From positions 1-28,556 of IMG/VR virus record IMGVR_UViG_3300030380_001342: DNA of 28,556 nt; one strand, given 5' to 3'. Under the pieces are notes generated by a model. It saw nothing but the letters and a program-made list of their open reading frames with translations. It made no database searches and was not told the DNA's origin. Position numbers and translations under genes: made by a program. Numbering within the stretch: position 1 is the stretch's first letter; every line of letters starts with the position of its first letter. Positions 3,994 to 26,449 of the stretch are shown here, in pieces. The DNA comes from a virus.

Positions 3994-5219
3994 TGATGAA
4001 TTTATTAGAAGTTCAAGATGACTTAAAAAACTTTTCACAAGATCAACTTGTAAAAGAAATGCAGCAACCATCAGGTGTTGCTCCTCAGTTTCTTGTATTA
4101 TCAGAGCTAAATAGAAGAAAAAGAGTTAAAGGTGACTTTGAGGCAAGGCAAGCTAAACAGCAACCTACAGTTGCAGAAGAGGCTGTTGCTGCGGCAGGTG
4201 TTCCTCAACAAGGTATGATGGGCATGTCAGAAGCTATGGCACCCGCTAGTGTAGACTCAGGTGGTATTGGTGCAATGATGCCTAAAACTATGAAAATGGG
4301 TGGTGAGGTTGACTCATATGCCGATGGTGGAATTATTAGAGCGCAAGATGGACTACCTAAAAATCCTTATAGACCTTTTGATGAGTTTCCTGAATATCCT
4401 GAAGGATATGAGTATACCCCAGAGGATACTCGTTTAGAGAGAATAGCAAAAGGAACTAGTCAAGTTTTACATGATGTAAAGCCTTATTTACCTTTTTCTC
4501 CAGAATTTATGAAAGTTATTGGTAATGATTTATCTCAATTTTTTAATGAGCCTGTTGGACTAGCTGAACAAGAAAAAGAAGAATCAGAAGATGCCGAAAA
4601 CATGGATCAAGCGTTAAATGATGCTGTAATTCAACAAAAACAAAAAGATCCCGTCCCTCAGCCAAAGTTAAATTTAACTTCTAAAGACTCTCCGTTAAGT
4701 ATTGAGCAAGAACTATTAAAGAGACAAGCAGATTTAAGTAAGTCAAAAGATTTTGATAAATACATGGCATTAGCTCAAGCTGGACTATCTATAATGGGAT
4801 CAACCAAGCCTACTCTTGCAGGCGCTATAGGAGAAGGTGGTACTGCTGGATTAAAAGCATTTAATGAAGCTAGAAAGAGATATGATGAAGGGCTAACAGA
4901 TATATTAAATGCAAGAGCTAAATTACAACAAGCTAAGATAACTGCTGCTGGTAAAGGCAGATTAACAAGATCTGGTGCGTTAACTGCTATATCTTCTTAT
5001 AACAATGCTATAACTGCTATCAGAAAAGAAATAGCTGATATATATCAAAAAAATCCAGCTGCCGATCAAGATGCTGCTGTAATGTCGCAAATAAATGATT
5101 TAAAAAATCAAATAATTGGTCTTGAAACGGAAAAATCACAATTATATAATACTGCGCAGATAAGACCCAGATCTTCAATACTTGTAAAGGATTTACCATC
5201 TTCTCAAAAGGAATCCTAA
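3993..5219 (+). CDS. Probable virion or ejection protein with YADGG motif
   Basis: A 408-residue protein. The N-terminal segment (MMNLLEVQDDLKNFSQDQLVKEMQ, then FLVLSELNRRKR) is a conserved opening I associate with environmental phage late proteins. A Met/Gly-rich linker leads to KMGGEVDSYADGGIIRAQDGL (about residues 103-123). Residues 240-300 include a Gly/Ala-rich hydrophobic stretch (LAQAGLSIMGSTKPTLAGAIGEGGTAGLKAF), followed by coiled-coil-like helices to the end. The start overlaps the previous stop (TGATG). One copy of the genome-wide 16-bp palindrome (4665-4680) lies inside the gene and encodes K-L-N-L-T. Role in the virion interior is inferred from position and composition only. Confidence 0.65.
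   Translation: MMNLLEVQDDLKNFSQDQLVKEMQQPSGVAPQFLVLSELNRRKRVKGDFEARQAKQQPTVAEEAVAAAGVPQQGMMGMSEAMAPASVDSGGIGAMMPKTMKMGGEVDSYADGGIIRAQDGLPKNPYRPFDEFPEYPEGYEYTPEDTRLERIAKGTSQVLHDVKPYLPFSPEFMKVIGNDLSQFFNEPVGLAEQEKEESEDAENMDQALNDAVIQQKQKDPVPQPKLNLTSKDSPLSIEQELLKRQADLSKSKDFDKYMALAQAGLSIMGSTKPTLAGAIGEGGTAGLKAFNEARKRYDEGLTDILNARAKLQQAKITAAGKGRLTRSGALTAISSYNNAITAIRKEIADIYQKNPAADQDAAVMSQINDLKNQIIGLETEKSQLYNTAQIRPRSSILVKDLPSSQKES
4665..4680. repeat. Palindrome copy 1 (AAGTTAA-AT-TTAACTT), intragenic
   Basis: Perfect 7+2+7 inverted repeat inside the 408-residue virion gene, in frame as K-L-N-L-T. It is one of nine identical half-site pairs in the window. Confidence 0.9.
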
Positions 5220-8200
5220 ATGGGAATGTACTCAACTATAAGCCCTGTATCTGGAAAGTTATATGACTTTGAGATAGAGGGTGACACCCCAAATGATGAA
5301 GAATTTGATAAAATACAGAATTTTATAGCCAATGATGGCGTTCTCACTCAAACACCTGCAGCAGACCCAGTGCCTGATGATGAAGGCGGTCTTTTAACAT
5401 TTGGGAAGTCTACTGTTGGTGGGCTTTTATCTAGTTTAGCTCAGGTCCCCGGTGGAGTATCCGCTCTTGGTGAGTATGTAGGTGGCTATGATATAGGGTC
5501 TACTGATTTTGGTAAGGCTGCACAAGATTGGTCTAATGAAAAGACAGAGTCTTTGAGAGAAACATTTGATATGAATGAGAGCGTATCAAGTAAGGCAGGA
5601 CAAGCTGCAGGCTCTCTATTGTCATTCTTTATTCCGGGTACAGCTGTTGCAAAAGGTGCAAGTGCATTAGGTGCTGGGGCTAAATTAGCTGGTGCCAGTG
5701 CTTTAGGAACAATGGCAACACAAGGCGCCGCTCTACAATCTGCTGATCAACTAAATAGAATGGCAAACTACATTGAGAATGGCGGAGAAATAGATGAGGA
5801 TACAAAAAGAAAAGCAGTAGCTTTAAGTGGTCTATTAGGAACTACAGAGGCGTTGCCTTTTGCTCCCATGTTTAGAACACTTGGTACTGCCATGAGGATT
5901 CTTAAAAAAGTTCCTAAAGGTCAAAAAGATGCAGCTTTATTAACTATAGGTGGCAGACTTAAAAGGGCATTTGGAGTTGGTTTAGCAGAGGGTGGCCAAG
6001 AAGTTTTTGCTGGTGTTGTCCAAGATATGATTGAAAAAGGACAATACAATCCTGATTTAGAGGTTGGTCAAAGTGCATACGATGATGCGGTATATGGTGG
6101 TGGTGCAGGTGCTGCCTTAAATTTAATTATTGATAGTGTTAGAGGCAGACAGCTAAATAAATTTTATAAAAAAGAAATGCAGCTTGATGAAGATATTAAA
6201 GATCTAAATAGACAAGCATTAAAGAGGCAAGATAATTATAATAATTATGCAGAATCATTAAAGCCAGTTGGCTTATTGCCTCCACCAACTGAAGCTATCA
6301 CCACAGAAGAACAAAAGAGGTTAATGCCTCCAAGTGAAAAGATACAAAAAGCAGTTACACCTTTGGCAATAGAGGATTTAAGAACTAGAGGGCAAAGAAG
6401 TGCTGCTGACACTCTAGCTGCTGCAAGAGAGACAACTAAGCCATTTACAGGCGTGCCTTTAGCTAGTTTGCCAAAAGAAGAAGCATTAAGAATTGCTCAA
6501 CAAAGACAAATGCTTGGCGAAGATATTAATGCAGATGTGTCTATTAATGAATTAGAAGGGGTTATAGGTGCGGCTGCAGCTAGAAGAGAAATGGCTAAAC
6601 AAAAGCCTATTCTTACTGAGCAGTTAGGCGACACAGTTTATTCTCCAACAGGTAGAGAAGAGCAGTTAACAGATCAGCAGGCTGATGAAATAAATAAAGA
6701 AGCCTCAGCAATAACTGAAGACTTAGTTGTAAAAGGTAAACTTAACAAGAATACATTAAGAAAAGCATTACAGGCTAGTTTTGGTAAAACAGTAAAAATA
6801 ACAAACACAGATGTTGATACATATCTTAAATTATTAGAGCAAGAAGGCGTTGTTACAAGAGATAAAAGAGGAAGATATGTTAAGGCTGATGATAGAGCTT
6901 TGGATCTAAAGGCAAAATCAGAGGCTATAAAACAAAGAGGAAAAGAAATACTTAATATTCAGAACAAAGCTGTATCTGAGGAAGAAATAGACAATCTTGC
7001 AAAAGAATATCTAGCTTTAAAGAATGAAGCAGATATTTTAGAAAGAGCTTCAAACAAAGTTGATGCAAAAGAAGCGGAAAAGGTAGAGGCAGATAATGTT
7101 GTGCCTGATTACACTGCTAAAAGAACATCTGACCAAGCTGCTAAGTCACCGTACACAGAAGAGTATAAGTTAAAATTAACTTCTGTATTAAATAATTTAA
7201 ACAAACAACTTCAAGATATGGGTTTAGGTAGCGTTAAGTTACAAGGTGAATCTATAATAAAAGATCAAAAAGGTGAGATTGATGCAGGAATAGAGGGTTA
7301 TTTTACATCAACACCTGATGGTAAGCGTATCATTGGTTTAGCAATGGATTTGTATGATCCTAATCTTACAGAGGCACAATTAACGAAGAAATTATCAGGC
7401 GTTTTAAACCATGAAATAATACATGCTTTAAGAAATATGGGCGCTATATCAGATGCAGATTATAATATTTTAGTAGTTGCCGCTACAAAGAGAAAATATG
7501 TTGGTGAGAAAAATGGTAAGTTTGTAACTAAAGAATATACATACATGGAAAGAGCAACAGCCTTATACCGAAACCAAGAAGGCATGACAGAAGAGGCCGT
7601 GCAAGAAGAAGCTGTTGCAGAAATGTTTAGAGATTACGCAGATGGCAAATTTAAAATTGTTGGAAAGCCAAAGAGTTTATTTGATAGAATTATTAGAATA
7701 CTTAAAGCAATATTTACAAGTAACTATGATGCAGGATTTACTCAGTCAAATCAAATATTTGCAAATATTCTTTCAACCAAAGCTGAAGTTGAAATTAAGA
7801 AAAGACAGAAAGCAGATAAACAGGCTAGAAGTAGCAAAAAGTACTCTACCGCTGGTATAGCTGCCGGGTATATAAGACCTGAACTAGGTAATATAGAAAG
7901 AATAAAGCAATCGTTTGCAGATGTTACAGTAAGGTTAGATGCTCTTCAAAAGGCCGCCAAAAGATTATCAGAAGGTAAAATTACGTATGAGCAGTATGAC
8001 AAACTAGTAAACAAAGTAAAGCCTATAGTGCCATATGAAACTGTACCAGCGCCTGCAACTATTGAAGAAATGCGTTTTGCGCTAACAGAAAGACAGGCAG
8101 AAAAAATAAATGCTTTAGATAATGTTCCAGAGGGAACTGAAGTCCAGTTAAGATTAGATATACCTGCCTACACAAGAAAAGGTGTTTGGGTTCCTACGAT

Positions 8201-11200
8201 ACATGGATCTGCTGAAACTGTAAGATTGGGATTATCTAAAAATAAAGATGCCCCAATATCACATGACAGTGTTGCAATAATAAATAATGCAAACTTTTTG
8301 ATGGGAACTGCAAAAGAAGAAAAAGGATTAAAGGTAGCTATGGGAGGCGCAAAGAGTCCTTTTGCTACTATAGAGGGTAACCTAGAGAAAACTACACCTG
8401 ATGCAGCGCATGCGGAAGCTGTAGCGGCTATGAACGACCCGTCTTTTATTCAGGTTGGATACGATCCTGAAAGACATTCATATTTTTATGACAGAATGAC
8501 CACGCAGCCTGTTGCTTCTGCGGACCGCGTTATACAAGTCGGACCGTTAGTTATGGCTAAAAATCCTGTATTTGAAGAAAAAGAAACCTTTTTATATTCA
8601 AAAATATCTACAAAGCCAGAGGGTTTTGAAAATAGACTAATAGGTTTTATTAAAGATAACCCTGATGGTTTTACAATAGACCCTGAATCATTCACAATAC
8701 CAAGTAAAGGCAAGGCTGTAGCACCAGTTAAAGCCGCTGAGATTGTAACAAGACCTGAACTAATTACACCTAGCTTGATAAGAGATTTTGCTAGAAATGT
8801 ACAAATTATGACTAAGATAGCTGGTAATGTTAGTTTGGATAACAAGGTTTATGCTGGTGGTTGGTTAAACCAAAAAGATGGATTATTTTATTTAGATGCA
8901 ACTATGGTTATTGAAGACCCAAGAGATGCATTATATACTGCAGAAGCAGGCAATCAGATAGCAATTTTTGACTTAGGAGAGTTTTATGAAACAAACACCG
9001 AAGAAGGAATCCGAAAACTCAAGCAAGATGGTACTTACAGTAGCGACCGCAGAGCAAGAATTGGATCAAATATACGACAATATAGTAAAGAATTTGTTGA
9101 AGCAAGGCGTGAAGATCCATCCCGACAAGAAATAAAATTTTCTAAGATAGGTCAAAACCCTATAGAACTGGCTAGTGAAAAGCGCGGCCCGAATGGCAAG
9201 CCTCTTATAGAGTTTACTACCGCTAATGAATATACAGAGAATATGATTGATCCTTTTACACCAGCAGGTGAGGGTCAAGAAGCAAGCACTGGTGTTTTCA
9301 AAGTGCAGCCTGAATATCAGACCGATCCTGATAAAGCTACCATTGCTAGAAAAAATACTGTAAGAGTTCCTTTTGCCCCTATAAATCATGCTAAGGCTAA
9401 GGGATTTGATGTTTATGCAGGCAATGTTCCTATCTTTGATATATTTTCTGATGATCCTGCAGTAGCAGAAAAAGCACAAGAAGATGTTGCTATTATGATG
9501 GCTGCTGAGGGATTTGCCGCACACAATCAAGATCAAAGCGCTTTAGGTTGGTATGACAGAACATTAAAAGCAGCTAAAGCATTGTTGCAAGATCCTGATG
9601 TTGGTCTTTATAAAGATATATCTAAGAATATAGATAATAGATTAGCGTTTGATTGGGCATTAAGCGTTACATCTAATGGTATAGGGGCTGTGCCTAACTT
9701 TGGATACGCAGGTAAAATATACGATTCTTGGGTTAATTCAAGTGAAGTTGTTGAAGACAGAAGGTTTCCAATACAAGGTTGGGGAGATTCAGCTACATCA
9801 ATGGAAAATGCATTTGCTTTTTATAATGCTTTAAAAAATCAAGGTCAAAATTCTAAGCAGATATATGAGTTGATGAATATGAAGACAACTCCTGCAAAAT
9901 TAAGACAAGATCCAAGAATAAAAGACTTGTTAATGGAGATACCTGAAGATTTAGCAAAGAAAAGATCTACAGTTAAAAATCCAGTTGGTACAGAAATACC
10001 TTACTCAGTGCCTGCAGCTGAATTATCTACTACCGAGGTAACAGGATCGTATGTTATTGGAGCTAAAATAGGAGAGGGATTTTTTCAAAATCTTAGTGGC
10101 AACTATGATGCTTTGACTATGGATATGTGGTTTATGAGAATGTTTAACAGACTTATTGGCAGACCATTTCAACCACCAGTTGATGAAACTACATTAGACG
10201 CAAACTTTGATAGAGTTTTAAATAATTTACAAGGGTTAAGCACTAGAAAAGGTAATGCTAGAACTCTTTATGAAGACCCCTTAACTGAATTTGATATAAA
10301 TGAAATTGAATATGCCATGAAAACTATGGGTATAGACAATGTAACAAGAGGCAATGTATTAGAATTTTCTAGAGTTTTACATAAAGAATTTAAAAGAAAA
10401 TTTGGAAGAGCCTCCAGAAGAAAAGAGCCTAGACCACCTAAATCAGAACTACAATTAGCCGCTGAAAGACTTGTTGCAAACCATGAGAATCAATTACAAG
10501 AAGATCCCACAACTGGCGGTGAAAGAATTATTATAAGAAAAGTAACTAACAGAGCTAGAGAAATATTAAAAGAAGGATCTGGTGGTAAAATAGATTTAAC
10601 TATGGCTGATTTTCAAGCACAGCAATGGTTTGCAGAAAAAAGGTTATGGTTTGCATCTGGTGTAAGAAAAGGTCAGGGAGATGACAATGATTACCTAGAT
10701 GGGGCTATACAATTATTAAGAGAAAGAGGAGTAGATAATGAAAGAATCGCAGAAGCAATCACTAGGATCGCCCCAGCAGAGCGAGGCAGACTCTTTAGTG
10801 TCTCAGGTTCCCTTAGACCAGATGGACAACTTCGCAAAGGTGATGATAGAGATTCTGCAGGAGAGCAAGGAACAAACGAAACAGACATAGAAACTGATCC
10901 GTTTGAGGGTTTACCTAGATCACAAGTCGCAGTATTAGAAGAAGATGCTTTAGACATGAAGTATTCTTTACTTGGTAGACCTGCTTCTATGGATGATCCT
11001 AAGAACTTTGTTATGTTGCCAAGAAGTCAACAGAAAAGAACAACAACAGGTCTTGGTGGATATGACATAAAAGCCTACTATAAGTATGGCAATCCTTTTA
11101 CATATGGTATGGCGCAGTCAATGGATGGCACAAATAACTTTGTAGTTATGCCTAGAGGGGAGCATTTTGAATTACAAAATAGAAAAGGTAAATACGGTGG

Positions 11201-14200
11201 CTATGGCTACGAACATATGTTTGGTGATAGATTTGATGATATTGGCGTAAAAATACCTAGTCACGCAGAGACTATATTAAAATATCACGATGTGAGAAAT
11301 GATGATCCATTAGAATTAGTTTATTCTATGCTTGATGAATACTCTAATTATCTCAGAGACTCTAGAAACACAAATACAATTAAAAGAATTAGAGATTATG
11401 GAATAAGAGTTTTCCCTGATGGTGGTGTTGGTAATAATGATATTAGAATTGAATGGGATAATGCACCATTAAGAAGACCAGAGCCTATGCAACCTGACGC
11501 AAATGGCAAGTTTCCAGATGGATCTACAATGTCAAGAGACAAGTTTGGCAAGCCTTGGACTAGAAATAACCCAAGACCAACAACACCTGCTCCACAAGAA
11601 AGAACTCTTGTTATGTCTCTTAAATATGAGCCACAAGGTTTTAAGGCTGTAAAAAGAGTAAAACCAAAAAGTTTTGCTGCCAATGTAAAGCAAGTATTTG
11701 CACAAAAAGAATTTGAGTGGAGACCTTTATATCAAGTTAGAACTACGTTTTCTAAGCCACAAAACACAGCTGCAAAACAAAGATTTCAATTTTCTACTAT
11801 TAGCTCTAATCCAGCACAGACAACAAGCCCTAATTCAGCAGACATAATACAAGATATAGAAAGAAAAACTCTTAAACTTAAATATGACAACTTATCTAGA
11901 TTTATAGCTAAAGGCTTGGGTGTATTTATGGAGCCAGATCTTGCAAAGGCAAGAGCGCAAAGAATACTTACATACTTTCAGGATGCCATGTTGCCTGTTG
12001 GGGCTATGATGGATGAGTTAAGAAAGAATGGATTTACTATTACTGATGCTATGGATACATACATGCAAGAGGCAGTGTATCAAGGTATAGTTGGAGATAA
12101 GGTAACTAAAGTTCAAGAAGAACTATTTCAACCTATGGTTGATGTTATGGATACTTTAAATATTAGTGATGCTAAAATACAAGAGTTAAGAGATATTAAA
12201 GGTGCAGGAGACTCCCCGGGGTTTTATGAAAGCGTTGAGGGAGATTATATAAGTAAAAAGTTGGCTATGACAGATGCTGTTCTTTACGCCTTCCATGCTA
12301 AACAAAGAAATGACTACTTAAGAAATAAATCAGATGGAGCTATTGACTCTGGCTCAGGTATGACAGATGCACAAGCTGACGAGATTATTTCTTGGTATAA
12401 TAGCTTAGAACAATCAGAGATATCAAAATTTGATGAGTTAAGAGAGTTTGCTAGAAAGATAAACGAAGATACAATAGATAGACGTATAGAGGCTGGTTTA
12501 TTACCGGCTGATGCAAGAGATCCCAATAGAGAGCCACCTATTATTATTTATCAAGATGGATCATATGTTCCATTGCAGGGAGATAGCGATATAGAAGTGG
12601 AGTCTATATTAGAAAGCACCTATGGAAGGAAAAGAATTTATACTAACTTTTTTGGGGCAACTGGTAGAGAGGATAAAAGGGCAACTGGTAGAGCCGCTGT
12701 TAACGATTATGCTGAAAATATAGTAGCATCATTGATGGCACAAAATAATAACTCGATAGATAGAGCAGAAAGAAATAAAGTTGGACAATCGTTTGCTCGT
12801 CTTATTGAGGGCCTAGAAGAACAGCCTGATGGAACTATAGCTACTAACGCCTCTTTGAAAAAAGAAATGTCTAAAATTGCTTTAGATGTAACAGATAAAA
12901 CGCCTGTTCAAAGACGGGATATGGGCATAAAACCTGATAATGAGTTTAAGTATAAAGAAAATGGACAAGAGAGAATCATTTTTATTAAAGATCCAAGAAT
13001 AGCAAAAGCTATGAACGGAGCCTTAACCCCTCAACAAAATAATTTTATTGTTAGGGGAATGGGCAAGTTTAATAGATTTCTATCTGCGGTTAACACAACA
13101 TACAACCCTTCATTTGTTATACCTAACTTCTTTAGAGACTTAGAGACAGCAGGTATAAACATGCAAGAGTATGATGAAAAGGGTATGACAGCAGAGGTTA
13201 TGAAGGGAACTCCTTCTGCTGTTAAAGGAATAGCGCAATTATTGGGAGTGCCATTTTTAGATAAGAATGCACCAAACGAATGGTCAGATATATACAAAGA
13301 GTTTGTATCCGCTGGTGGTAAGAATGCCACTAACCAAATGAGCGATGTTAAAGATCAAATAGATAATATAGGAAGTATATTGGGAGATGTAGCTGATAGT
13401 GGCATTAAACAAAAACTAGGACTAAATAAAAATCAGTTTGCAGGTAAAAATATAAAATCAATAATGTCTGTTCTTGATAATGCTAACACAGCAGTTGAGA
13501 ATGGAGTTAGAGTTGCTTTGTATAAAGCCCTCCGTGATAGAGGCGTGTCTAAGATACAGGCTGCTCAAGCAGCTAGGAACGTAACTGTGAACTTTGCCAA
13601 AGGTGGTGAGAACAAAGCTGTATTTAATTCATTATACTTGTTTTACAACGCATCACTTCAGGGATCAATGGCGCTAGTAAACGCGGCTGTTAAATCACCT
13701 AAAGTTAGAAAAATGTGGGCGGGATTAATAGTATTTGGAATTATGCAGGACATGATGAATGGTCTGTTTGCAGGGGATGAAGACGAGGATGGCATTAATG
13801 ATTATGACGAATTACCGCAGCATATATTAGAACATAATATAATTGTACCGACTTTTGGGCTTACAGGAGAAAAGCATGTAACAATACCTTTAGCCTATGG
13901 TTTAAATATGGCTGTAAATTTTGGTAGAAGTATAAGCAGGCTTGCACGAGGCGAATACACCCCGGGCGAAGCAACAAGCACTATTGTTGGAACAACAGTA
14001 GAAGCTATTAGCCCTATAGGTGCTTTTGATAATTTCTTAAACTTTGCGCTTCCTACAGTGGCGGACCCTTTTGCTGCCGTCTACATGAACGAGGACTATA
14101 AAGGAGATCCTATTTACAAAGAATCGCCTACCTACGCATCTGTAAGTAAATCTAATGCTTCTCAATATTGGTCTAATACTAGTGAGATAACTAAATTCAT

Positions 14201-14765
14201 TGCAAGAGAAGTAAACGCACTTACTGGTGGAGATGATATAAAGGGTGGATTGATAGATATGTCTCCTGATGTAATAGAGTATTGGATTGGAACTTTTACT
14301 GGTGGTGTCGGTAGATTTGCGATGAGAACACTTGAAGCACCTGTAGATATATACAATGCACTTGAGGGAGACTTTGAGGGAAGTTTGGTTAACAGTATTC
14401 CTTTGGTCAGGAAGGTTATAACCACGCCTTCTCCAAGAGCGGATACTGGTAACTATTTAGAAAATAGACAAGACTTGTTTACATTAGTGGCACAACTTGA
14501 TCTGGCAAAGAAATCGGGGGATATTGGTGCGGTCAGGTCTATCTACGAATCTAACAAGAAGCAATTAAGCATTGTTGGTAGAATGAAAGCTATTGATAAC
14601 GCAAGGAATAGAATGCAACGGCAGATTAAAGAAATTGAGAGAAACCCAAGAATACCTGATGAGACAAAGAAAAAGATTATAAGAATTAGAAGACAGAAGA
14701 TTAATGAGCTTCAACAAATGGGGTTAATACTTATGAGATCTGTGGGATACAAAAAGGCGGGTTAA
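5220..14765 (+). CDS. Giant polyvalent virion protein with metallopeptidase motif and LPD38-like C-terminus
   Basis: A 3181-residue protein filling a third of the window. It starts with a short acidic domain (YDFEIEGDTPNDEEFDKI), then Gly/Ala-rich hydrophobic helices (about 55-180 and 235-300), as in ejected internal proteins. A zinc-metallopeptidase signature HEIIH is at 731-735, with a Glu-rich helix (QEEAVAEM, 795-802) that could give the third ligand. Further regions resemble domains common in phage polyvalent proteins (WVPTIHGS...SYFYDR near 990-1090; WYDRTLKAAKALL near 1440). The C-terminal part (about 2600-2900; NPSFVIPNFFRDL, YNASLQGSM at 2809) matches the LPD38-type domain. An EF-hand-like loop D-E-D-E-D-G-x-x-D-x-x-E sits at 2853-2864. 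Such proteins are thought to be packaged and injected to act on the host. The exact activities here are unproven. A palindrome copy lies at 7167-7182. Confidence 0.85.
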   Translation: MGMYSTISPVSGKLYDFEIEGDTPNDEEFDKIQNFIANDGVLTQTPAADPVPDDEGGLLTFGKSTVGGLLSSLAQVPGGVSALGEYVGGYDIGSTDFGKAAQDWSNEKTESLRETFDMNESVSSKAGQAAGSLLSFFIPGTAVAKGASALGAGAKLAGASALGTMATQGAALQSADQLNRMANYIENGGEIDEDTKRKAVALSGLLGTTEALPFAPMFRTLGTAMRILKKVPKGQKDAALLTIGGRLKRAFGVGLAEGGQEVFAGVVQDMIEKGQYNPDLEVGQSAYDDAVYGGGAGAALNLIIDSVRGRQLNKFYKKEMQLDEDIKDLNRQALKRQDNYNNYAESLKPVGLLPPPTEAITTEEQKRLMPPSEKIQKAVTPLAIEDLRTRGQRSAADTLAAARETTKPFTGVPLASLPKEEALRIAQQRQMLGEDINADVSINELEGVIGAAAARREMAKQKPILTEQLGDTVYSPTGREEQLTDQQADEINKEASAITEDLVVKGKLNKNTLRKALQASFGKTVKITNTDVDTYLKLLEQEGVVTRDKRGRYVKADDRALDLKAKSEAIKQRGKEILNIQNKAVSEEEIDNLAKEYLALKNEADILERASNKVDAKEAEKVEADNVVPDYTAKRTSDQAAKSPYTEEYKLKLTSVLNNLNKQLQDMGLGSVKLQGESIIKDQKGEIDAGIEGYFTSTPDGKRIIGLAMDLYDPNLTEAQLTKKLSGVLNHEIIHALRNMGAISDADYNILVVAATKRKYVGEKNGKFVTKEYTYMERATALYRNQEGMTEEAVQEEAVAEMFRDYADGKFKIVGKPKSLFDRIIRILKAIFTSNYDAGFTQSNQIFANILSTKAEVEIKKRQKADKQARSSKKYSTAGIAAGYIRPELGNIERIKQSFADVTVRLDALQKAAKRLSEGKITYEQYDKLVNKVKPIVPYETVPAPATIEEMRFALTERQAEKINALDNVPEGTEVQLRLDIPAYTRKGVWVPTIHGSAETVRLGLSKNKDAPISHDSVAIINNANFLMGTAKEEKGLKVAMGGAKSPFATIEGNLEKTTPDAAHAEAVAAMNDPSFIQVGYDPERHSYFYDRMTTQPVASADRVIQVGPLVMAKNPVFEEKETFLYSKISTKPEGFENRLIGFIKDNPDGFTIDPESFTIPSKGKAVAPVKAAEIVTRPELITPSLIRDFARNVQIMTKIAGNVSLDNKVYAGGWLNQKDGLFYLDATMVIEDPRDALYTAEAGNQIAIFDLGEFYETNTEEGIRKLKQDGTYSSDRRARIGSNIRQYSKEFVEARREDPSRQEIKFSKIGQNPIELASEKRGPNGKPLIEFTTANEYTENMIDPFTPAGEGQEASTGVFKVQPEYQTDPDKATIARKNTVRVPFAPINHAKAKGFDVYAGNVPIFDIFSDDPAVAEKAQEDVAIMMAAEGFAAHNQDQSALGWYDRTLKAAKALLQDPDVGLYKDISKNIDNRLAFDWALSVTSNGIGAVPNFGYAGKIYDSWVNSSEVVEDRRFPIQGWGDSATSMENAFAFYNALKNQGQNSKQIYELMNMKTTPAKLRQDPRIKDLLMEIPEDLAKKRSTVKNPVGTEIPYSVPAAELSTTEVTGSYVIGAKIGEGFFQNLSGNYDALTMDMWFMRMFNRLIGRPFQPPVDETTLDANFDRVLNNLQGLSTRKGNARTLYEDPLTEFDINEIEYAMKTMGIDNVTRGNVLEFSRVLHKEFKRKFGRASRRKEPRPPKSELQLAAERLVANHENQLQEDPTTGGERIIIRKVTNRAREILKEGSGGKIDLTMADFQAQQWFAEKRLWFASGVRKGQGDDNDYLDGAIQLLRERGVDNERIAEAITRIAPAERGRLFSVSGSLRPDGQLRKGDDRDSAGEQGTNETDIETDPFEGLPRSQVAVLEEDALDMKYSLLGRPASMDDPKNFVMLPRSQQKRTTTGLGGYDIKAYYKYGNPFTYGMAQSMDGTNNFVVMPRGEHFELQNRKGKYGGYGYEHMFGDRFDDIGVKIPSHAETILKYHDVRNDDPLELVYSMLDEYSNYLRDSRNTNTIKRIRDYGIRVFPDGGVGNNDIRIEWDNAPLRRPEPMQPDANGKFPDGSTMSRDKFGKPWTRNNPRPTTPAPQERTLVMSLKYEPQGFKAVKRVKPKSFAANVKQVFAQKEFEWRPLYQVRTTFSKPQNTAAKQRFQFSTISSNPAQTTSPNSADIIQDIERKTLKLKYDNLSRFIAKGLGVFMEPDLAKARAQRILTYFQDAMLPVGAMMDELRKNGFTITDAMDTYMQEAVYQGIVGDKVTKVQEELFQPMVDVMDTLNISDAKIQELRDIKGAGDSPGFYESVEGDYISKKLAMTDAVLYAFHAKQRNDYLRNKSDGAIDSGSGMTDAQADEIISWYNSLEQSEISKFDELREFARKINEDTIDRRIEAGLLPADARDPNREPPIIIYQDGSYVPLQGDSDIEVESILESTYGRKRIYTNFFGATGREDKRATGRAAVNDYAENIVASLMAQNNNSIDRAERNKVGQSFARLIEGLEEQPDGTIATNASLKKEMSKIALDVTDKTPVQRRDMGIKPDNEFKYKENGQERIIFIKDPRIAKAMNGALTPQQNNFIVRGMGKFNRFLSAVNTTYNPSFVIPNFFRDLETAGINMQEYDEKGMTAEVMKGTPSAVKGIAQLLGVPFLDKNAPNEWSDIYKEFVSAGGKNATNQMSDVKDQIDNIGSILGDVADSGIKQKLGLNKNQFAGKNIKSIMSVLDNANTAVENGVRVALYKALRDRGVSKIQAAQAARNVTVNFAKGGENKAVFNSLYLFYNASLQGSMALVNAAVKSPKVRKMWAGLIVFGIMQDMMNGLFAGDEDEDGINDYDELPQHILEHNIIVPTFGLTGEKHVTIPLAYGLNMAVNFGRSISRLARGEYTPGEATSTIVGTTVEAISPIGAFDNFLNFALPTVADPFAAVYMNEDYKGDPIYKESPTYASVSKSNASQYWSNTSEITKFIAREVNALTGGDDIKGGLIDMSPDVIEYWIGTFTGGVGRFAMRTLEAPVDIYNALEGDFEGSLVNSIPLVRKVITTPSPRADTGNYLENRQDLFTLVAQLDLAKKSGDIGAVRSIYESNKKQLSIVGRMKAIDNARNRMQRQIKEIERNPRIPDETKKKIIRIRRQKINELQQMGLILMRSVGYKKAG
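7167..7182. repeat. Palindrome copy 2 (AAGTTAA-AA-TTAACTT), intragenic
   Basis: Perfect 7+2+7 inverted repeat inside the giant gene, upstream of its HEIIH motif. It is in the same reading phase as copy 1 and encodes K-L-K-L-T. Confidence 0.9.
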
Positions 14766-14781
14766 AAGTTAATTTTAACTT
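14766..14781. repeat. Palindrome copy 3 (AAGTTAA-TT-TTAACTT) at the end of the late operon
   Basis: Perfect 7+2+7 inverted repeat that starts at the base after the TAA stop of the giant gene. A half site (AAAGTTAA) follows at 14790-14797. It marks the 3' end of the plus-strand late unit. Confidence 0.9.
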
Positions 14782-15489: not shown

Positions 15490-15727
15490 TGTACTCCTCT
15501 ATATCTTCTATTTTATGTGTATTTATAAATATTGGTGTGTCATCTCCTACCCACGAACCCAAAACATTAAAATGAAACCACTCCATTGCAGTTTCATCAT
15601 CCATTCCATATTTATCAACTAAGATGAATAAGCATTTGTCGTAATCGTATACTGCCACTTGTTTTCTACTGAAGGCACTTATACTACTACCGATGAATGC
15701 GTCTTCATACCCATCTGCTAGTTTCAT
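15449..15727 (-). CDS. Conserved phage protein of unknown function (92 aa)
   Basis: A 92-residue acidic protein. The N-terminal part (MKLADGYEDAFIGSS) and the core (AVYDYDKCLFILVDKYGMDDETAMEWFHFNVLGSWVGDDTP) follow a pattern I recall from several marine phage and cyanophage hypothetical proteins, including the W-F-x-F-N-V-x-G-x-x-V-G-x-x-T-P section. No function is known to me. The C-terminus is very acidic (EDIEEYIEDDSDDEQ). A clear TAGGAG precedes the ATG. It overlaps the upstream nuclease gene by 23 bases and the HNH gene by about 40. Confidence 0.75.
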   Translation of the reverse strand: MKLADGYEDAFIGSSISAFSRKQVAVYDYDKCLFILVDKYGMDDETAMEWFHFNVLGSWVGDDTPIFINTHKIEDIEEYIEDDSDDEQVGEN

Positions 15728-16148
15728 TGTTTTCTCCTATTCGTTTAAAATACTTTAGATCAAAATGGCACATAGGCTCTTGATCTTGCCAATCGTTTCT
15801 GTCTGATCGACCACCATGTTTAACTTGGTGATCACTAAAAAAATCTAAGTAAGCCAACGCACCTAGCCACGACACGATGAGTAATGATTTAGTATTTGTT
15901 TCTCTAGCAAGTCTTCTAGCTTCCATGACCTTTGATAGAGATATTATGTACGTTGGGAATGTACCAAACTTATGACTTCTACATTTAACTTCTGCAAATC
16001 CAATTAAATTTTCATTACGATAAAATGCATAATCAATTTTATAAGATATTGGTAACTTGTAATAAACTACGTTCCAAGATTGTGAAACGTAGTCTATAAT
16101 TTTTTTCTCTGAGGTTAGGTCAGATCTTGACTCGTAAAGCGGTCTCAT
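15705..16148 (-). CDS. PD-(D/E)XK nuclease-fold phage protein
   Basis: A 147-residue protein with a compact PD-(D/E)XK-type core. Residues YKIDYAFYRNENLIGFAEVKCR provide Asp39 and the Glu53-Val-Lys55 pair expected for metal binding and catalysis. A helix rich in Arg (KVMEARRLARETN) follows, then a hydrophobic strand (SLLIVSWLGALAYLDF). This resembles small holdfast nucleases found beside replication genes in phages. The substrate is unknown. The ATG directly follows a palindrome copy (16149-16164) and has no recognisable ribosome site. Translation may rely on termination of the upstream HTH gene, whose stop codon lies within that same palindrome. Confidence 0.65.
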   Translation of the reverse strand: MRPLYESRSDLTSEKKIIDYVSQSWNVVYYKLPISYKIDYAFYRNENLIGFAEVKCRSHKFGTFPTYIISLSKVMEARRLARETNTKSLLIVSWLGALAYLDFFSDHQVKHGGRSDRNDWQDQEPMCHFDLKYFKRIGENNETSRWV

Positions 16149-16164
16149 AAGTTAAACTTAACTT
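16149..16164. repeat. Palindrome copy 4 (AAGTTAA-AC-TTAACTT) between HTH and nuclease genes
   Basis: Perfect 7+2+7 inverted repeat. It contains the TAA stop of the HTH gene (16158-16160, minus strand) and abuts the ATG of the nuclease gene at 16148. Confidence 0.9.
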
Positions 16165-16394
16165 CTAGGAGTCTTGTTTTCTAGCCAATGAACAACCTCA
16201 GACCTTTTGTAAAGTTTAGTAGGTCTGTTTTTATCTGACTTGACTATCACAAAGCCTTTTGGAAACTTTGATTCCTCATCATTCATTATTTTGTATAGTG
16301 TCATCCTACTTATACTGAGTAATCTAGCAACACCATCTAATGTAAGGTAATCAGCATTTATATCAGCTTTGTTCTGTGACTTCTTTATTGTCAT
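16158..16394 (-). CDS. AlpA/excisionase-like helix-turn-helix DNA-binding protein
   Basis: The 78-residue form starts at MTIKKSQNK, chosen because AGGGAAG lies just upstream. A longer frame with an ATG at 16427 lies wholly inside the preceding gene. The core (YLTLDGVARLLSISRMTLYKIMND, then FPKGFVIVK and LYKRSEVVHWLE) is the winged HTH pattern of AlpA/Xis-type proteins. The recognition helix is about SRMTLYKIM, and a final Trp-containing helix contacts the wing. Such proteins act as phage transcription activators or excisionases. No integrase is visible in the window, so a regulator role is favoured. It is the only clear HTH regulator here and a natural candidate to bind the repeated palindrome, one copy of which covers its own stop codon. 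Confidence 0.8.
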   Translation of the reverse strand: MTIKKSQNKADINADYLTLDGVARLLSISRMTLYKIMNDEESKFPKGFVIVKSDKNRPTKLYKRSEVVHWLENKTPRS

Positions 16395-16599
16395 TTTCTT
16401 CCCTTTCGTCAGGTGTTCCGTCTTCATTTAACTTTACCATGACAACCATATACCTAGACCCAACCCAATCTTTATGTAAATCTTGAGGAACATCATTAGG
16501 ATGTATGGTTAGTTTTATATTAGTTCCATTTTTGTCTTGCATCATAGATGTTTTAACTGCCTCAAAACTAATGTTAGGCACTTTCTTTTCTTCTTCCAT
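16363..16599 (-). CDS. Conserved small phage protein of unknown function (78 aa)
   Basis: A 78-residue protein. The central stretch NIKLTIHPNDVPQDLHKDWVGSRYMVVMVKLNEDG (about 27-61) matches a pattern I recall in many phage genomes (K-L-x-(I/V)-H-P-x-D-x-P-x-x-L, then VG-x-RY). It is always a small protein near replication or recombination genes. The likely shape is a small beta-barrel. No function is known. The acidic, polar tail (REENDNKEVTEQS) overlaps the following HTH gene start by about 30 bases. It begins 12 bases after the SSB-like gene and has an AAAGGAG site. Confidence 0.7.
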   Translation of the reverse strand: MEEEKKVPNISFEAVKTSMMQDKNGTNIKLTIHPNDVPQDLHKDWVGSRYMVVMVKLNEDGTPDEREENDNKEVTEQS

Positions 16600-19442: not shown

Positions 19443-19505
19443 TTATAACAATACTAGTTATAAATATATAATATATATATACTAGTTATAACTAGTAATA
19501 CTAGT
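19438..19505. repeat. ACTAGTTATAA repeat cluster, candidate replication origin
   Basis: Five ACTAGT hexamers lie in 68 bases (19438, 19453, 19481, 19491, 19500). Three are extended as direct ACTAGTTATAA copies (19438, 19453, 19481). The last forms a perfect 16-bp palindrome ACTAGTTATAACTAGT (19481-19496). Between them is an 18-base A/T-only stretch (19463-19480). Iterons plus an easily melted tract directly upstream of the primase-helicase gene fit a replication origin; an operator array for that gene is the alternative. Confidence 0.55.
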
Positions 19506-19507
19506 GG

Positions 19508-19523
19508 AAGTTAAAATTAACTT
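19508..19523. repeat. Palindrome copy 5 (AAGTTAA-AA-TTAACTT) upstream of the primase-helicase
   Basis: Perfect 7+2+7 inverted repeat, the only intergenic copy upstream of a plus-strand gene rather than at a gene's end. It follows the ACTAGT cluster by two bases. A half site, CTTAACTT, recurs at 19573-19580, and AACAAG/CTTGTT (19541-19546, 19562-19567) forms a further inverted repeat. Confidence 0.9.
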
Positions 19524-21991: not shown

Positions 21992-22028
21992 GAGGGCGGT
22001 TTTCTCCAACCGCCCTCGATCTTTTTCT
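21992..22028. terminator. Bidirectional Rho-independent terminator
   Basis: GAGGGCGGTT (21992-22001) pairs perfectly with AACCGCCCTC (22008-22017) around a six-base loop. On the plus strand it is followed by GATC and five T residues; on the minus strand by TTTT. It sits between the converging replication unit and the SleB gene, so it can end both. This GC-rich stem is the strongest terminator in the window. Confidence 0.9.
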
Positions 22029-22030
22029 AA

Positions 22031-22046
22031 AAGTTAATTTTAACTT
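22031..22046. repeat. Palindrome copy 6 (AAGTTAA-TT-TTAACTT) at the end of the SleB gene
   Basis: Perfect 7+2+7 inverted repeat that directly abuts the TAG stop of the SleB gene (22047-22049, minus strand), between it and the bidirectional terminator. Confidence 0.9.
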
Positions 22047-22496
22047 CTAGTCATATAAGTAGTCGTTATTAGGTTTAGTTTCCCACTTATAAAATATGTG
22101 GTTATCTATTCTTGTTATGAATGTTTTAGTTTCTGCCCAACTAGGATTAACATAGTCAGCATGATAATGTGTTGCACCCTCGACAAAATCATCTAGGTGT
22201 TGATTATAAACACCATTGGCTATATGCATAGCATCTTCCCATGCTTTGTTGTCTCTAGGTTTGTCGCTTTTACCATCGCAGTACCAACTAAATTGACATC
22301 TGTTTTTTATAGGTAGGGATGGTTTCCATTTGTAGGTTAGTCCTTGTTTGACCACCTCACAAACAGTATTGGGATATCGATTGTCTTTTACTCTATTCAT
22401 AACGACTTGTGCTACTGCCACTTGCCCTATGAAACTTTGGTTTTTTGCCTCGTGATATATATTTAATGCAAGGCATACTAATGATGCAGTTAACAT
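22047..22496 (-). CDS. SleB-type cell wall hydrolase
   Basis: A 149-residue protein of the SleB/Hydrolase_2 family. It has the characteristic NIYHEAKNQS (catalytic-type Glu16), GQVAVAQVVMNRV (24-36), YPNTVCEVV, RCQFSWYCDGK (about 66-76) and ATHYHADYVNPSWA (about 108-121) segments. Members cleave peptidoglycan during spore germination or, in phages, at lysis or entry. There is no obvious signal peptide; the short hydrophobic start is part of the fold. It is the last gene of the minus-strand early-looking unit, although its function looks late, and it complements the T4-type lysozyme in the late operon. AGGAG precedes the start. Confidence 0.88.
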   Translation of the reverse strand: MLTASLVCLALNIYHEAKNQSFIGQVAVAQVVMNRVKDNRYPNTVCEVVKQGLTYKWKPSLPIKNRCQFSWYCDGKSDKPRDNKAWEDAMHIANGVYNQHLDDFVEGATHYHADYVNPSWAETKTFITRIDNHIFYKWETKPNNDYLYD

Positions 22497-22510
22497 AATT
22501 AATCTCCTAT

Positions 22511-22526
22511 AAGTTAAGTTTAACTT
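22511..22526. repeat. Palindrome copy 7 (AAGTTAA-GT-TTAACTT) between the 79-aa gene and SleB
   Basis: Perfect 7+2+7 inverted repeat directly after the TAA stop of the upstream minus-strand gene (22527-22529). ATAGGAG and the SleB start follow immediately. Confidence 0.9.
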
Positions 22527-22766
22527 TTAATCGTCAAAAATACCGCCTCGTTGCATGTGCTGAATGGTTGATGTACTTACACGATTTACTCTGCCATAAT
22601 CTTTTTCACGAATGGCTCTAGGATCGTCTTCAAATCTTTCATCCTCTCCTAATTCTTTTGGTGTCATTTTAGCATTACGTCTATAAAGGTCTCTTTGTAG
22701 GTCAACTATTGAATTTCTGTACCTATGCCCCTTAGATCTGCCTTTAATTTTACTATAAGTTGTCAT
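22527..22766 (-). CDS. Small basic protein of unknown function (79 aa)
   Basis: A 79-residue polar protein with a basic first half (YSKIKGRSKGHRYRNSIVDLQRDLYRRN) and an acidic middle (ELGEDERFEDDPRAIREKDYG), followed by STSTIQHMQRGGIFDD. I do not recognise the family. The AGGAG site and the ATG lie at the end of the preceding open frame, overlapping it by 14 bases. The stop codon is followed at once by a palindrome copy. Confidence 0.65.
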   Translation of the reverse strand: MTTYSKIKGRSKGHRYRNSIVDLQRDLYRRNAKMTPKELGEDERFEDDPRAIREKDYGRVNRVSTSTIQHMQRGGIFDD

Positions 22767-23020: not shown

Positions 23021-23058
23021 CCACTTTTGAACACCGCTAATGGAGTAGTTTCTCCCCC

Positions 23059-23786: not shown

Positions 23787-23937
23787 TTGTTTTCTCCATT
23801 TCCATTTGGTATGCATCGTTATCTTCATCTTTCCACATTTCGTAGCAAGACCAACACAGATGCCAATTAGCATCTGTTCTATATATTCCGAATGTGTGGG
23901 CATCGCATCCCACACATTGATGATCTCCATAGTCCAT
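23779..23937 (-). CDS. Small zinc-ribbon protein (52 aa)
   Basis: A short gene hidden beneath a longer open frame. The 52-residue product carries two CxxC knuckles, C-V-G-C (Cys8, Cys11) and C-W-S-C (Cys28, Cys31), 16 residues apart, with aromatic residues typical of a zinc ribbon between them. A charged Met/Glu tail follows. The start overlaps the stop of the upstream membrane peptide (TAATG) and the stop overlaps the next start, exactly as in the rest of the unit. A structural or nucleic-acid-binding zinc site is likely; the partner is unknown. Confidence 0.65.
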   Translation of the reverse strand: MDYGDHQCVGCDAHTFGIYRTDANWHLCWSCYEMWKDEDNDAYQMEMEKTNG

Positions 23938-24062
23938 TATAAAACTCCTATAATTATTACTGAGATTAATACTGAAAATGCAAAGCCAATCTTGATGTAA
24001 AGATTTCTTACATAATTGTCTTCATACATTCTATTTTGGTAGTACTTAAAATTATATTTCAT
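23937..24062 (-). CDS. Single-TM small membrane peptide (41 aa)
   Basis: A 41-residue product: a polar, Tyr/Asn-rich N-terminal half (MKYNFKYYQNRMYEDNYVRN) and one hydrophobic segment (IGFAFSVLISVIIIGVL, about 25-41) that runs to the C-terminus. It is preceded by the unit's stereotyped start region, TTAGGAGATCAAA-ATG, which directly follows a palindrome copy. The size and topology suit a small inner-membrane regulator. Its stop overlaps the zinc-ribbon start. Confidence 0.65.
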   Translation of the reverse strand: MKYNFKYYQNRMYEDNYVRNLYIKIGFAFSVLISVIIIGVL

Positions 24063-24075
24063 TTTGATCTCCTAA

Positions 24076-24091
24076 AAGTTAAAGTTAACTT
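24076..24091. repeat. Palindrome copy 8 (AAGTTAA-AG-TTAACTT), extended to 20 bp
   Basis: Perfect palindrome; symmetry extends to 24074-24093 (AAAAG...CTTTT). It directly follows the TAA stop of the 79-aa gene (24092-24094, minus strand) and is followed by TTAGGAG and the start of the TM peptide. Confidence 0.9.
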
Positions 24092-24331
24092 TTACAGACC
24101 TGACTTTGTTGCATTGATCATGTAATCTACAAAATCAATGAACGTATCTCGATCCATAAATTTTTCAAAACTGCCCTCATAAAAAAATGGCTCTTTGTCA
24201 GGATCAGACATATCAACAATTTCATGGCTGAAAATCTGATCGCCAACTGTAAGAGTAGGGCAATACATATAGCCTTTGTGAACCCAAGCGATTAGATCGC
24301 TTGGATTAACAGTTTGGTTTGTGTTAGGCAT
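24092..24331 (-). CDS. Small acidic protein of unknown function (79 aa)
   Basis: A 79-residue acidic protein (MPNTNQTVNPSDLIAWVHKGYMYCPTL..., ending DTFIDFVDYMINATKSGL). The middle (IVDMSDPDKEPFFYEGSFEKFMDRD) is rich in Asp, Glu and Phe. No family is recognised. The start has the GGAGTTCAAT-ATG form shared with other genes of this unit. The stop is followed at once by palindrome copy 8. Confidence 0.65.
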   Translation of the reverse strand: MPNTNQTVNPSDLIAWVHKGYMYCPTLTVGDQIFSHEIVDMSDPDKEPFFYEGSFEKFMDRDTFIDFVDYMINATKSGL

Positions 24332-24344
24332 ATTGAACTCCTTT

Positions 24345-25163
24345 CTAGTCTAATAGGTTGCCTATGACTTCTTTAGTTATACGTTGTGAAACATTAGTCT
24401 CTGCTCTTCTTAACTCAGGACTAACTGCATTGATTGTCTCAGGCGGTGTCCAACCATCGCCATCAGCATATGGTCTTCCCTCGCTAACCTGATAGGATGC
24501 CAACCACATATCTTCAAATACTGTTAACTCTCCCGCTTTAACAGAAACAATATTACACTTGTAGGCATTGATGCTATCAGCAGATAATCTTGCGATCTCA
24601 ACCTTTTTAACATCCGCAACAAAACAAGGTCTGCCCAAGTATTGAACTGTGTCCAAACCTTTTTTATAAACCTTATGATACCAAAGTGGGGATATAAATA
24701 GCTTTGCCTCTTTCCAATAGCTATCCTTGTTCTGCTCCATCCTCATTTTGCCTAGTGTGGTCTTGTCACATTTAACTTTGCATGATGTTCTAGGATGATT
24801 TTCATTCCACCAAATTTGAGACCACTTCTTTGTATCAGCAATAGCAGATTTCCAAATATCGTACTGATCCATAAATGTGCTACAAATCATAGATCCCTTT
24901 TGCATCTCTTTTCTATGCTTTCGTACCGCCTCATATAGCTTTGGCATACCCTCGAAAAACTGTTGCATACTGTAGTCAAAACAAGATTTAAGTTTATCAA
25001 ACTCTTCTCTCTTTTTCTGATCTCTGTGGGCATAGTTATAATCGCTTGCCCTGATATGCTCGATATCTAAACCAAACTCTTGCATATTAAAATGTAAAAC
25101 ATCATGTGCTTTTAAAAATGCCATGTGCTTTACATATTTTGGATTGTCTAAGTTTTTTATCAT
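24345..25163 (-). CDS. Unknown 272-aa protein downstream of the MoxR/VWA pair
   Basis: The start is taken at MIKNLDNPKYVKHMAF because GGAGATCAAT precedes it exactly; the ATG twelve bases upstream overlaps that ribosome site. The first half is helical and charged (NMQEFGLDIEHIRASDYNYAHRDQKKREEFDKLKSC; FFEGMPKLYEAVRKHRKEMQKG). The second half is beta-like (AKLFISPLWYHKVYKKGLDTVQYLGRPCFVADVKKVEIA) with the ending GDGWTPPETINAVSPELRRAET. I do not recognise a family. It follows the VWA gene across a stem-loop and may belong functionally to that pair. Confidence 0.7.
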   Translation of the reverse strand: MIKNLDNPKYVKHMAFLKAHDVLHFNMQEFGLDIEHIRASDYNYAHRDQKKREEFDKLKSCFDYSMQQFFEGMPKLYEAVRKHRKEMQKGSMICSTFMDQYDIWKSAIADTKKWSQIWWNENHPRTSCKVKCDKTTLGKMRMEQNKDSYWKEAKLFISPLWYHKVYKKGLDTVQYLGRPCFVADVKKVEIARLSADSINAYKCNIVSVKAGELTVFEDMWLASYQVSEGRPYADGDGWTPPETINAVSPELRRAETNVSQRITKEVIGNLLD

Positions 25164-25197
25164 ATTGATCTCCATAATTATGATAGTAGTTAATGTT

Positions 25198-25247
25198 TAG
25201 ACCACAAGCACAACTAAGGTGCTTGTGGATAAAATGGTTTAGGTCTA
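25198..25247 (-). other. Intercistronic stem-loop after the VWA gene
   Basis: CCACAAGCAC (25202-25211) pairs perfectly with GTGCTTGTGG (25219-25228) around a seven-base loop. TAGACC (25198-25203) and GGTCTA (25242-25247, containing the VWA stop codon) give an alternative outer pairing. There is no U-run on the minus strand, so mRNA processing or protection is more likely than termination. Confidence 0.65.
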
Positions 25248-26420
25248 GGCTACTTTTAGATAAGTAGTCTGACCTATTGGTGCATCCTTGCACTTGATAT
25301 CGCTTGATACCCAAAGGATAGGATAGCCAACATCTGACTTGGGATAATCAAATATGCCCATGTCTGTGAAATATATAAAGTTATCTACTTTAATATTTTC
25401 TTTTTCGATGTAGTTAAAGACGGGCATAACTCTTGTACCGCCTCGACCTTTGACCTCGAACTGCTCGATGTCCTCGCCTTTTTCGTATCGTACAACCTTT
25501 TGTACATCCGCATCACATTGAATAACTGTGACACTTTCAGCACCTGAGTTTTTGGTAATCTCGTTCAACTCGCCCAAGAAATAAGATAACTCTCTATTCC
25601 TAACAGATGCTGACGTATCGATTGCTACAACCACATGACCGCATCCAACCATATTTGATGTAGGTGTAATAACCTCGTTCAAGTACCATTGTCTGCGATT
25701 AGGTCTGCGATAACTGTAGTCTTGAGGCTGATCCCCGCCAACAAATCTCCTGAGAACATCCGCCCAATCGATTTGAGATCTTTCCATAGCTTTGATTAGA
25801 TCTTTAATAGCTGATGGTATCTTGCCCCTATTCTTAATAGAACTTACCGCCATCGTAGTCTGAGCATCGATCGTTGCCTCTTCTTGCTTGACCTGATCTT
25901 CAGACATACCGCTTGGTGCATCGACATTGCCCCATGTCTGAGGCTGAGGCTGACCGCTACCGCCATCGCCACCGCCACCATTGGGATCTTTTTGTCTCTC
26001 ATCGCTTTCAGTTTGTAGGATGTCGTAAATCTTTTCTGCTGACATTCCCTTAAACCTATCATCGACTAAAGCACCATCAGGTAAAACCAAGCCACTATCC
26101 AACACGATTGGATTAATGGCATAGTCACAAGCGATATTCCATAGCTGAGGATCTCTCTTGCCCATCCTGAGATGATGTTTGAGAACTCGATGAAATGCCT
26201 CGTGAACTTTGACACCATCAAGCTGAGGCTCAGTTAAGCCATCAGTAAATTCCTCATTGTAGAATATATTTGTGCCATCAGTTGCCATCGTTGGGATCTC
26301 ATTCTTGATTACCATTGGCATCTGATAAAGGATAGAGGCATAAAACCCCCATCCCTTGCCTAGTTTGTCAAGCATTAGCCTGACTTTTGATCTTGCGATC
26401 TTACGTTGTAAATCATGCAT
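25245..26420 (-). CDS. Metallopeptidase-like/VWA protein (DUF2201 type)
   Basis: A 391-residue protein with two parts. The N-terminal region has a HEAFH zinc-metallopeptidase motif (73-77, in VHEAFHRVLKHH) and an AC-DYAINPIV helix, as in the putative peptidase half of DUF2201 proteins. A Gly/Gln-rich linker (GGGGDGG, near 155) follows. The C-terminal half is a VWA-like domain with the metal-ion site Asp268-x-Ser270-x-Ser272 (VAIDTSASV) and a later YFTDMG. Proteins of this type work with MoxR AAA+ ATPases as chaperone- or metal-insertase-like machines; that ATPase is the next gene upstream, 30 bases away across a palindrome. The target in a phage is unknown. Confidence 0.85.
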   Translation of the reverse strand: MHDLQRKIARSKVRLMLDKLGKGWGFYASILYQMPMVIKNEIPTMATDGTNIFYNEEFTDGLTEPQLDGVKVHEAFHRVLKHHLRMGKRDPQLWNIACDYAINPIVLDSGLVLPDGALVDDRFKGMSAEKIYDILQTESDERQKDPNGGGGDGGSGQPQPQTWGNVDAPSGMSEDQVKQEEATIDAQTTMAVSSIKNRGKIPSAIKDLIKAMERSQIDWADVLRRFVGGDQPQDYSYRRPNRRQWYLNEVITPTSNMVGCGHVVVAIDTSASVRNRELSYFLGELNEITKNSGAESVTVIQCDADVQKVVRYEKGEDIEQFEVKGRGGTRVMPVFNYIEKENIKVDNFIYFTDMGIFDYPKSDVGYPILWVSSDIKCKDAPIGQTTYLKVA

Positions 26421-26433
26421 ATTGCACTCCTAA

Positions 26434-26449
26434 AAGTTAAAGTTAACTT
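26434..26449. repeat. Palindrome copy 9 (AAGTTAA-AG-TTAACTT) between ATPase and VWA genes
   Basis: Perfect 7+2+7 inverted repeat abutting the TAG stop of the ATPase (26450-26452, minus strand). TTAGGAG-TGCAAT-ATG of the VWA gene follows directly, so stop, palindrome, ribosome site and start fill about 35 bases. Confidence 0.9.

Follow-up and report, generated by a model that had tools for sequence, protein, structure and literature searches.

A palindrome repeated at gene borders

The window analysed here, the whole of a viral contig of 28,556 bases (IMG/VR record IMGVR_UViG_3300030380_001342), has every mark of an incomplete phage genome. It carries nine mismatch-free copies of the palindrome AAGTTAA-NN-TTAACTT, designated sites A to I, at the following positions:

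4665..4680, site A: inside gene 3993-5219, in frame 0 (AAG TTA AAT TTA ACT); same codons in relatives, the in-frame stretch being absent in G004 and G007
7167..7182, site B: in frame 0 within the giant gene 5220-14765 (AAG TTA AAA TTA ACT); same codons in the closest relatives
14766..14781, site C: immediately 3' of the stop codon of the giant (9.5-kb) gene, between converging operons; same place in relatives
16149..16164, site D: includes the AlpA-like gene's stop codon and touches the start codon of gene 15705-16148
19508..19523, site E: 96 nt before the primase-helicase gene and 10 bp after a second palindrome; kept in relatives
22031..22046, site F: immediately after the stop codon of gene 22047-22496 (minus strand), adjoining a two-way intrinsic terminator, between converging operons
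22511..22526, site G: immediately after the stop codon of gene 22527-22766 (minus strand), preceding the ribosome-binding site of 22047-22496
24076..24091, site H: immediately after the stop codon of gene 24092-24331 (minus strand)
26434..26449, site I: follows the MoxR-like ATPase gene, immediately after its stop codon, and precedes the ribosome-binding site of the VWA gene

The initial annotation of this DNA had reported nine perfect copies, with far fewer than one expected by chance and with seven lying between genes, at stop codons or before the primase-helicase gene. All nine were exact at these coordinates and their placement was confirmed. The pattern was absent from each of 100 dinucleotide-preserving shuffles, none of which approached the count of nine that the annotation had named as telling against it, and relaxing the pattern (up to 3 mismatches) yielded just weak extra matches in the window. 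A stop codon immediately preceded the copy in five of the nine cases (14766, 22031, 22511, 24076 and 26434), and in the last four of these it belonged to a minus-strand gene. The two copies inside genes (4665 and 7167) were both read in frame 0 and encoded the peptide K-L-x-L-T.

The element extends beyond these 16 bp. Averaged over the copies, outward positions 10 and 11 from the dyad were T and A, giving an extended form TAn-AAGTTAA-NN-TTAACTT-nTA of ~22 bp in which the stop codon of the preceding gene, TAA or TAG, is the outer flank. Since this TA, which lies beyond the 16 bp, is conserved as well, the stop codon belongs to the element; it forms the outer flank of a longer palindrome, which explains why no base separates it from the core. 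Four copies had the form TTAACTT-nTAGGAG, the TAG before GAG being the other flank; at 22511, 24076 and 26434 this TAGGAG serves the next gene as its ribosome-binding site, and at 16149 it lies on the strand opposite to the minus-strand genes. An operator overlapping a stop codon in this way would have one set of bases carry two signals. Two neighbouring genes can be described further. Gene 15705-16148, whose start codon abuts site D, encodes a PDDEXK_14 nuclease, and site D fills the gap between it and the AlpA stop codon. The giant gene 5220-14765 encodes a protein of 3181 residues with an LPD38 domain near its end, which it has in common with Synechococcus phage MinM2; the length of this protein is very variable among relatives.

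Conservation of the sites in related phages

Relatives were collected through searches with the primase and the MoxR protein (about 70 loci), and a wider scan covered more than 500 primase relatives. Three groups are distinguished below: the closest set (the window, G001, G002, G003, G008 and similar loci), clade 2 (most of L166-L181, minus L170, L176 and L177) and a distant set (G009, L186 and L192). Scanning all viral contigs with the bare 16-bp pattern returned mostly contigs with a single copy, and the pattern combined with the ribosome-binding site was more specific. A megablast search of the window against phage records gave no match.

The palindrome was found at matching gene borders in dozens of relatives. 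In the closest set the sites occupied the same borders and were commoner than in shuffles, G001 having 11 of them; the same borders carried a diverged word in relatives whose MoxR proteins were 33-40% and whose giant proteins were about 44% identical to those of the window. The relatives also had one site beside the terminase small subunit gene. The structural operon of G002 (about 16 kb) held one weak copy only. The annotation had proposed that copies should keep their position at gene borders in related phages, and they did so, being neither absent nor scattered at random.

The in-gene sites indicate what is being conserved. Wherever the stretch could be aligned in the closest relatives, all six codons of both sites were unchanged amid synonymous variation of the neighbouring codons, and selection therefore acts on the DNA and not on the peptide. 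Site A lies in an in-frame stretch that is missing from clade 2 (G004, G007), which has a different in-gene copy elsewhere in the giant gene; in G008 an alignment gap falls at site A, yet the same 16 bp are present in that gene. On the evidence of these sequence comparisons, the palindrome is a real, widespread and selectively maintained element.

Concerted change of the word between lineages

The word itself differs from lineage to lineage and does so in concert across the sites of a genome. In L170, L176 and L177 the half-site AAGTTGA was present in all listed strong sites but one, and in G002 and G003 four sites read AAGTTTAATTTAACTT (AAGTTTA half-site). Clade 2 had c/g centres and relaxed outer positions. 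In G009 and L186 (MoxR 33-40% identity) AAAAGTTTACGTAAAGTTTT and close variants were found at the AlpA stop codon and between the MoxR and VWA genes, and in G009 sites of this type also followed the giant gene and lay beside the terminase small subunit gene. More distant relatives carried replacement words, with GTAAAsTTTT, TGAACTT and GTACAAA half-sites, mostly at the same borders and with the dyad register unchanged; L281, for instance, is of the GTAAAC type and L320 of the TGAAC type. Among the longer loci, de novo discovery recovered the families AAGTTAA, AAGTTTAC, AAAGTTC, AGTTCAA, TTTGTAC and TGTACTA; some loci gave no family, several of the shorter ones having just one or two copies, and L285, L286 and L289, missed by exact-arm palindrome discovery, carry the asymmetric form GTTTACGTAAA. 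When the half-sites are aligned from the dyad outward, a single register is common to all lineages, and in it positions 4 to 6 are A/T, A and mostly C. One locus, L187 (6304 bases), has a primase region like that of L186 together with an AlpA protein and a site D of another type, likely through a natural exchange of both together.

Among annotated phages, Synechococcus phage MinM2 (OQ594354; 69% GC), a record submitted as that of an isolate and found through its primase and terminase, has the layout of the window: late genes including one for a giant LPD38 protein, a converging operon, primase, a VWA/MoxR operon, RusA and terminase, the converging operon holding an AlpA family regulator with ERF and PD-(D/E)XK genes. 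MinM2 contains 37 copies (up to 2 mismatches; 17 exact) of GGTTCAGNCTGAACC (GGTTCAG-N-CTGAACC), and a control with the reversed pattern gave 0. Several of these copies end 3 bases from a TGA stop codon within a longer palindrome TGATCCGG...CCGGATCA, one immediately precedes the AlpA gene's ribosome-binding site, and about a third are in genes. MinM2, Pag-Yong1 and Pra-JY27 are equal in length and have an identical AlpA protein. The records OQ594354, OL906435 and PP438419, which name different cyanobacterial hosts, share one length (65,014) and this AlpA protein, with 69% GC in the one examined, and their host assignment may deserve a check. A repeated palindrome was not found in five phages that share only terminase or MoxR with the window, namely the terminase relatives HTVC027P and HTVC023P (both Pelagiphages), 023Pt_psg01 and DSL-LC04, and the MoxR relative CRP-7, whose layout differs from that of the window.

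A candidate regulator encoded beside site D

The annotation had suggested that the palindrome is the binding site of a phage regulator; conservation at gene borders, conservation of the in-gene copies as DNA and the concerted change of the word all support this. It had also put forward as binder the product of the following gene:

16158..16394, minus strand: AlpA-like (HTH_17) winged-helix protein, candidate binder; 78 residues, the open reading frame possibly starting at 16427

This more specific claim is plausible, with observations on both sides. Exactly one HTH_17 protein per genome was found in 15 of 15 relatives; the window protein scored 24.9 bits against the HTH_17 profile (cut-off 27), and 8 of the 15 relatives were above the cut-off. 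In every clade of the close set and in most of the distant ones, a site contains or adjoins the AlpA stop codon. Across 30 diverse genomes the raw correlation with motif distance was 0.68 for AlpA and 0.71 for primase; with primase controlled, AlpA retained a partial rho of 0.35 (permutation p 0.002), and RusA, the Cas4-like protein and the single-stranded DNA-binding protein (SSB) fell to zero or below. Covariation of the sequences thus favours AlpA over these three other early proteins, short of proof.

Several observations weigh against assigning the sites to an AlpA dimer. No obvious site was seen at the AlpA stop codon in L316, L319, L320 and L322. In 31 close genomes (site D left out), the correlation of motif distance with AlpA was 0.69 and did not exceed that with other genes, RusA and p176 being higher, and in the 30 diverse genomes the primase kept a partial correlation of 0.43 with AlpA controlled. 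As a means of singling out AlpA, covariation failed on the close set and was modest on the wide one. A structure model of the AlpA-like protein, of moderate confidence (pLDDT 73), resembled the winged helices of RdfS, BldC, Xis and MerR-type proteins, none below an E value of 0.001. The nearest folds, the excisionase RdfS and BldC, oligomerise head-to-tail or bind direct repeats (PMC11963761), which points away from a simple symmetric dimer, and the protein of 78 residues is devoid of an evident dimerisation helix. Sequence searches for solved relatives of AlpA returned just a weak match to a homing endonuclease and one to a DnaA-related protein, and an AlpA search in annotated phages gave no match at E 0.01.

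Proposed role of the sites

The reading that we favour, though tentatively, makes the sites the operators of a single regulator encoded by the phage itself. This regulator, most likely the AlpA-like protein, would bind them symmetrically and probably halt or slow elongation, and repress initiation at promoter-proximal sites. We infer here the phage origin of the binder, its identity as AlpA, its dimeric state and its action on elongation. The regulator would bind as a symmetric pair of subunits to a site of 16-22 bp, with a half-site reading T-N-A-A-C-T-T outward from the dyad, and its most likely source would be the winged-helix gene at 16158-16394. The sites, about ten per genome, mark gene ends and the spaces between cistrons, precede the primase and terminase operons and occur twice in the late operon. 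They divide the leftward operons into segments: one series consists of the MoxR group, the VWA group, the small genes and the hydrolase, another of the recombination genes with AlpA and the nuclease group. The bound protein would probably stop or slow elongating RNA polymerase at these borders in the manner of a stoperator, and the amount of regulator would set the distance over which each operon is read through.

The tyrosine integrase family PF00589 was not found in ten records, integrases of other families not having been searched, and HTH_3 was seen only in G001, below the curated cut-off, and as trace matches coinciding with AlpA, other repressor families likewise not having been searched. 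Given this lack of PF00589 and of HTH_3 above cut-off, the array would tune or time lytic transcription rather than silence a prophage. A broader picture, which we hold with somewhat greater reserve, is that of a probably virulent lineage of aquatic phages under a genome-wide operator array welded to stop codons and read by a small AlpA-like protein. Word and reader would diversify per lineage in a fixed dyad register, forming a private punctuation code without lysogeny, possibly a tool of competition between co-infecting phages.

Other functions were weighed against regulation of elongation by a phage protein. Unlikely, but the strongest of them, is that the sites are loading or activation elements at which a bound regulator recruits or modifies RNA polymerase as an activator or antiterminator. 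In its favour, the primase and terminase operons are preceded by site E and, in relatives, by the site near the terminase small subunit gene, and there is a two-way terminator beside site F. However, most sites are at gene ends with too little space for a promoter before the start codon (14 nt at site H), converging operons flank sites C and F, and promoter-like matches were rarer than in shuffles (37 vs 53). The antiterminator element of Pseudomonas aeruginosa AlpA also differs, being 6 bp long, non-palindromic and placed between -10 and -35 (PMC9371919).

It is quite unlikely that the sites serve the DNA itself, in condensation, partition (parS-like), packaging or control of replication. Copies inside genes and between converging operons, the coverage of most of the genome and the one site next to the terminase small subunit gene in relatives would suit such a role, but the long structural operon of G002 has its single weak copy only, and the way in which the sites exactly fill the space from stop codon to ribosome-binding site indicates gene borders. 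No ParB-like protein was found among the scanned proteins, in a scan that included no search specific for ParB.

A host transcription factor such as CtrA is an improbable reader. The half-sites contain TTAA and phages of Alphaproteobacteria use CtrA sites, but CtrA needs TTAA-N7-TTAA (PMC9437464) and the spacing here is TTAA-N2-TTAA; CtrA was rejected on this spacing. The word moreover becomes GTAAAGTTTT, TGAAC or GTACAAA in relatives, whereas the sites of a conserved host regulator should stay alike.

Equally improbable is a function of the sites as boundary sequences promoting the exchange of gene modules, which the annotation had offered as an option. The phage has an ERF-like recombinase (with an annotated counterpart in MinM2), and some relatives have, while others lack, the cell-wall-hydrolase-like gene 22047-22496 between sites G and F; where it is absent, the upstream gene meets one site with the flank of F. 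Breakpoints of homology between 12 genomes nevertheless lay within 40 bp of a site in 10.1% of cases compared to 7.8% for random gene junctions (95% limit 10.3%), and the in-gene copies and the concerted change of the word are left unexplained. Exchange was therefore set aside as a general function, breakpoints not being clearly enriched at sites, with that one gene as the exception.

Finally, the RNA hairpin between cistrons that the annotation had also considered, a processing or stability element that could pair over about 10 bp of the extended palindrome between stop codon and ribosome-binding site, is very improbable: among 60 non-consensus arm pairs in 56 distinct sites, 40 were unpaired, 15 were G-U and 5 were Watson-Crick (related sequences counted repeatedly), and a G-G mismatch is kept in several sites of one clade, so that arm pairing is not conserved and the site is one of double-stranded DNA.

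Comparison with known systems

Distributed phage operators are a known kind of element, and the palindromic array fused to stop codons would be a distinct form of it. The closest parallel is offered by the stoperators of Cluster A mycobacteriophages (L5, Bxb1; PMC6550527, PMC9283540), at which the bound protein stops elongation (PMC6550527). Both occur in many copies genome-wide, most of them away from promoters (judged here by position), and in both the word and the regulator diverge together among related phages, the regulator here being a candidate only. Stoperators, in contrast, are 13-bp asymmetric sequences oriented with transcription and bound by the monomeric immunity repressor of temperate phages, whereas the sites described here are perfect palindromes fused to stop codons, and the searches gave neither a tyrosine integrase (PF00589, ten records) nor a conserved HTH_3 repressor. 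The SPBRE element of Bacillus prophage SPbeta (PMC10516654) is likewise a repeated intergenic element with one phage regulator, MrpR, as its reader, but it lies in promoter regions and MrpR has a tyrosine-recombinase fold, for which PF00589 was undetected in our ten records. CtrA sites in phages of Alphaproteobacteria (PMC9437464) resemble ours in their TTAA half-sites and differ in their N7 spacing, the word here being variable between lineages with N2.

The candidate binder probably has the winged-helix domain of the AlpA/HTH_17 regulators and excisionases (CP4-57 AlpA, RdfS, BldC). A role in excision is not expected here because no tyrosine integrase was detected in the ten records. The P. 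aeruginosa AlpA antiterminator acts through GGGACG between -10 and -35 (PMC9371919), and both the element and its position differ from those found here. The open-access literature that we searched contained no description of such an array, and no genome-wide palindromic array for the AlpA/HTH_17 family was found in it.

In temperate phages, operators spread over the genome and acting on elongation are known to keep the prophage silent; an array of this kind with no detected integrase would show another use, for instance in setting gene dosage along operons or in lytic timing. The series of words TTAAC, TCAAC, TGAAC, GTAAA and GTACA, with the matching AlpA-like proteins, would provide a ready set for studying how winged-helix specificity changes, and the element may give a handle on regulation in a widespread and mostly uncultured group of viruses.

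A second palindrome before the primase and terminase operons

Upstream of site E lies one further feature:

19480..19497: second palindrome, TACTAGTTATAACTAGTA, single copy in the window

In G001, G002, G003, G004, G005 and G018 it was found upstream of the primase and terminase operons, often as a pair 34-57 bp apart, and it is possibly a second operator near the main promoters. In L186, the regions upstream of the primase and terminase operons contain repeats of about 22 bp that resemble ATGGTTATAACCAT.

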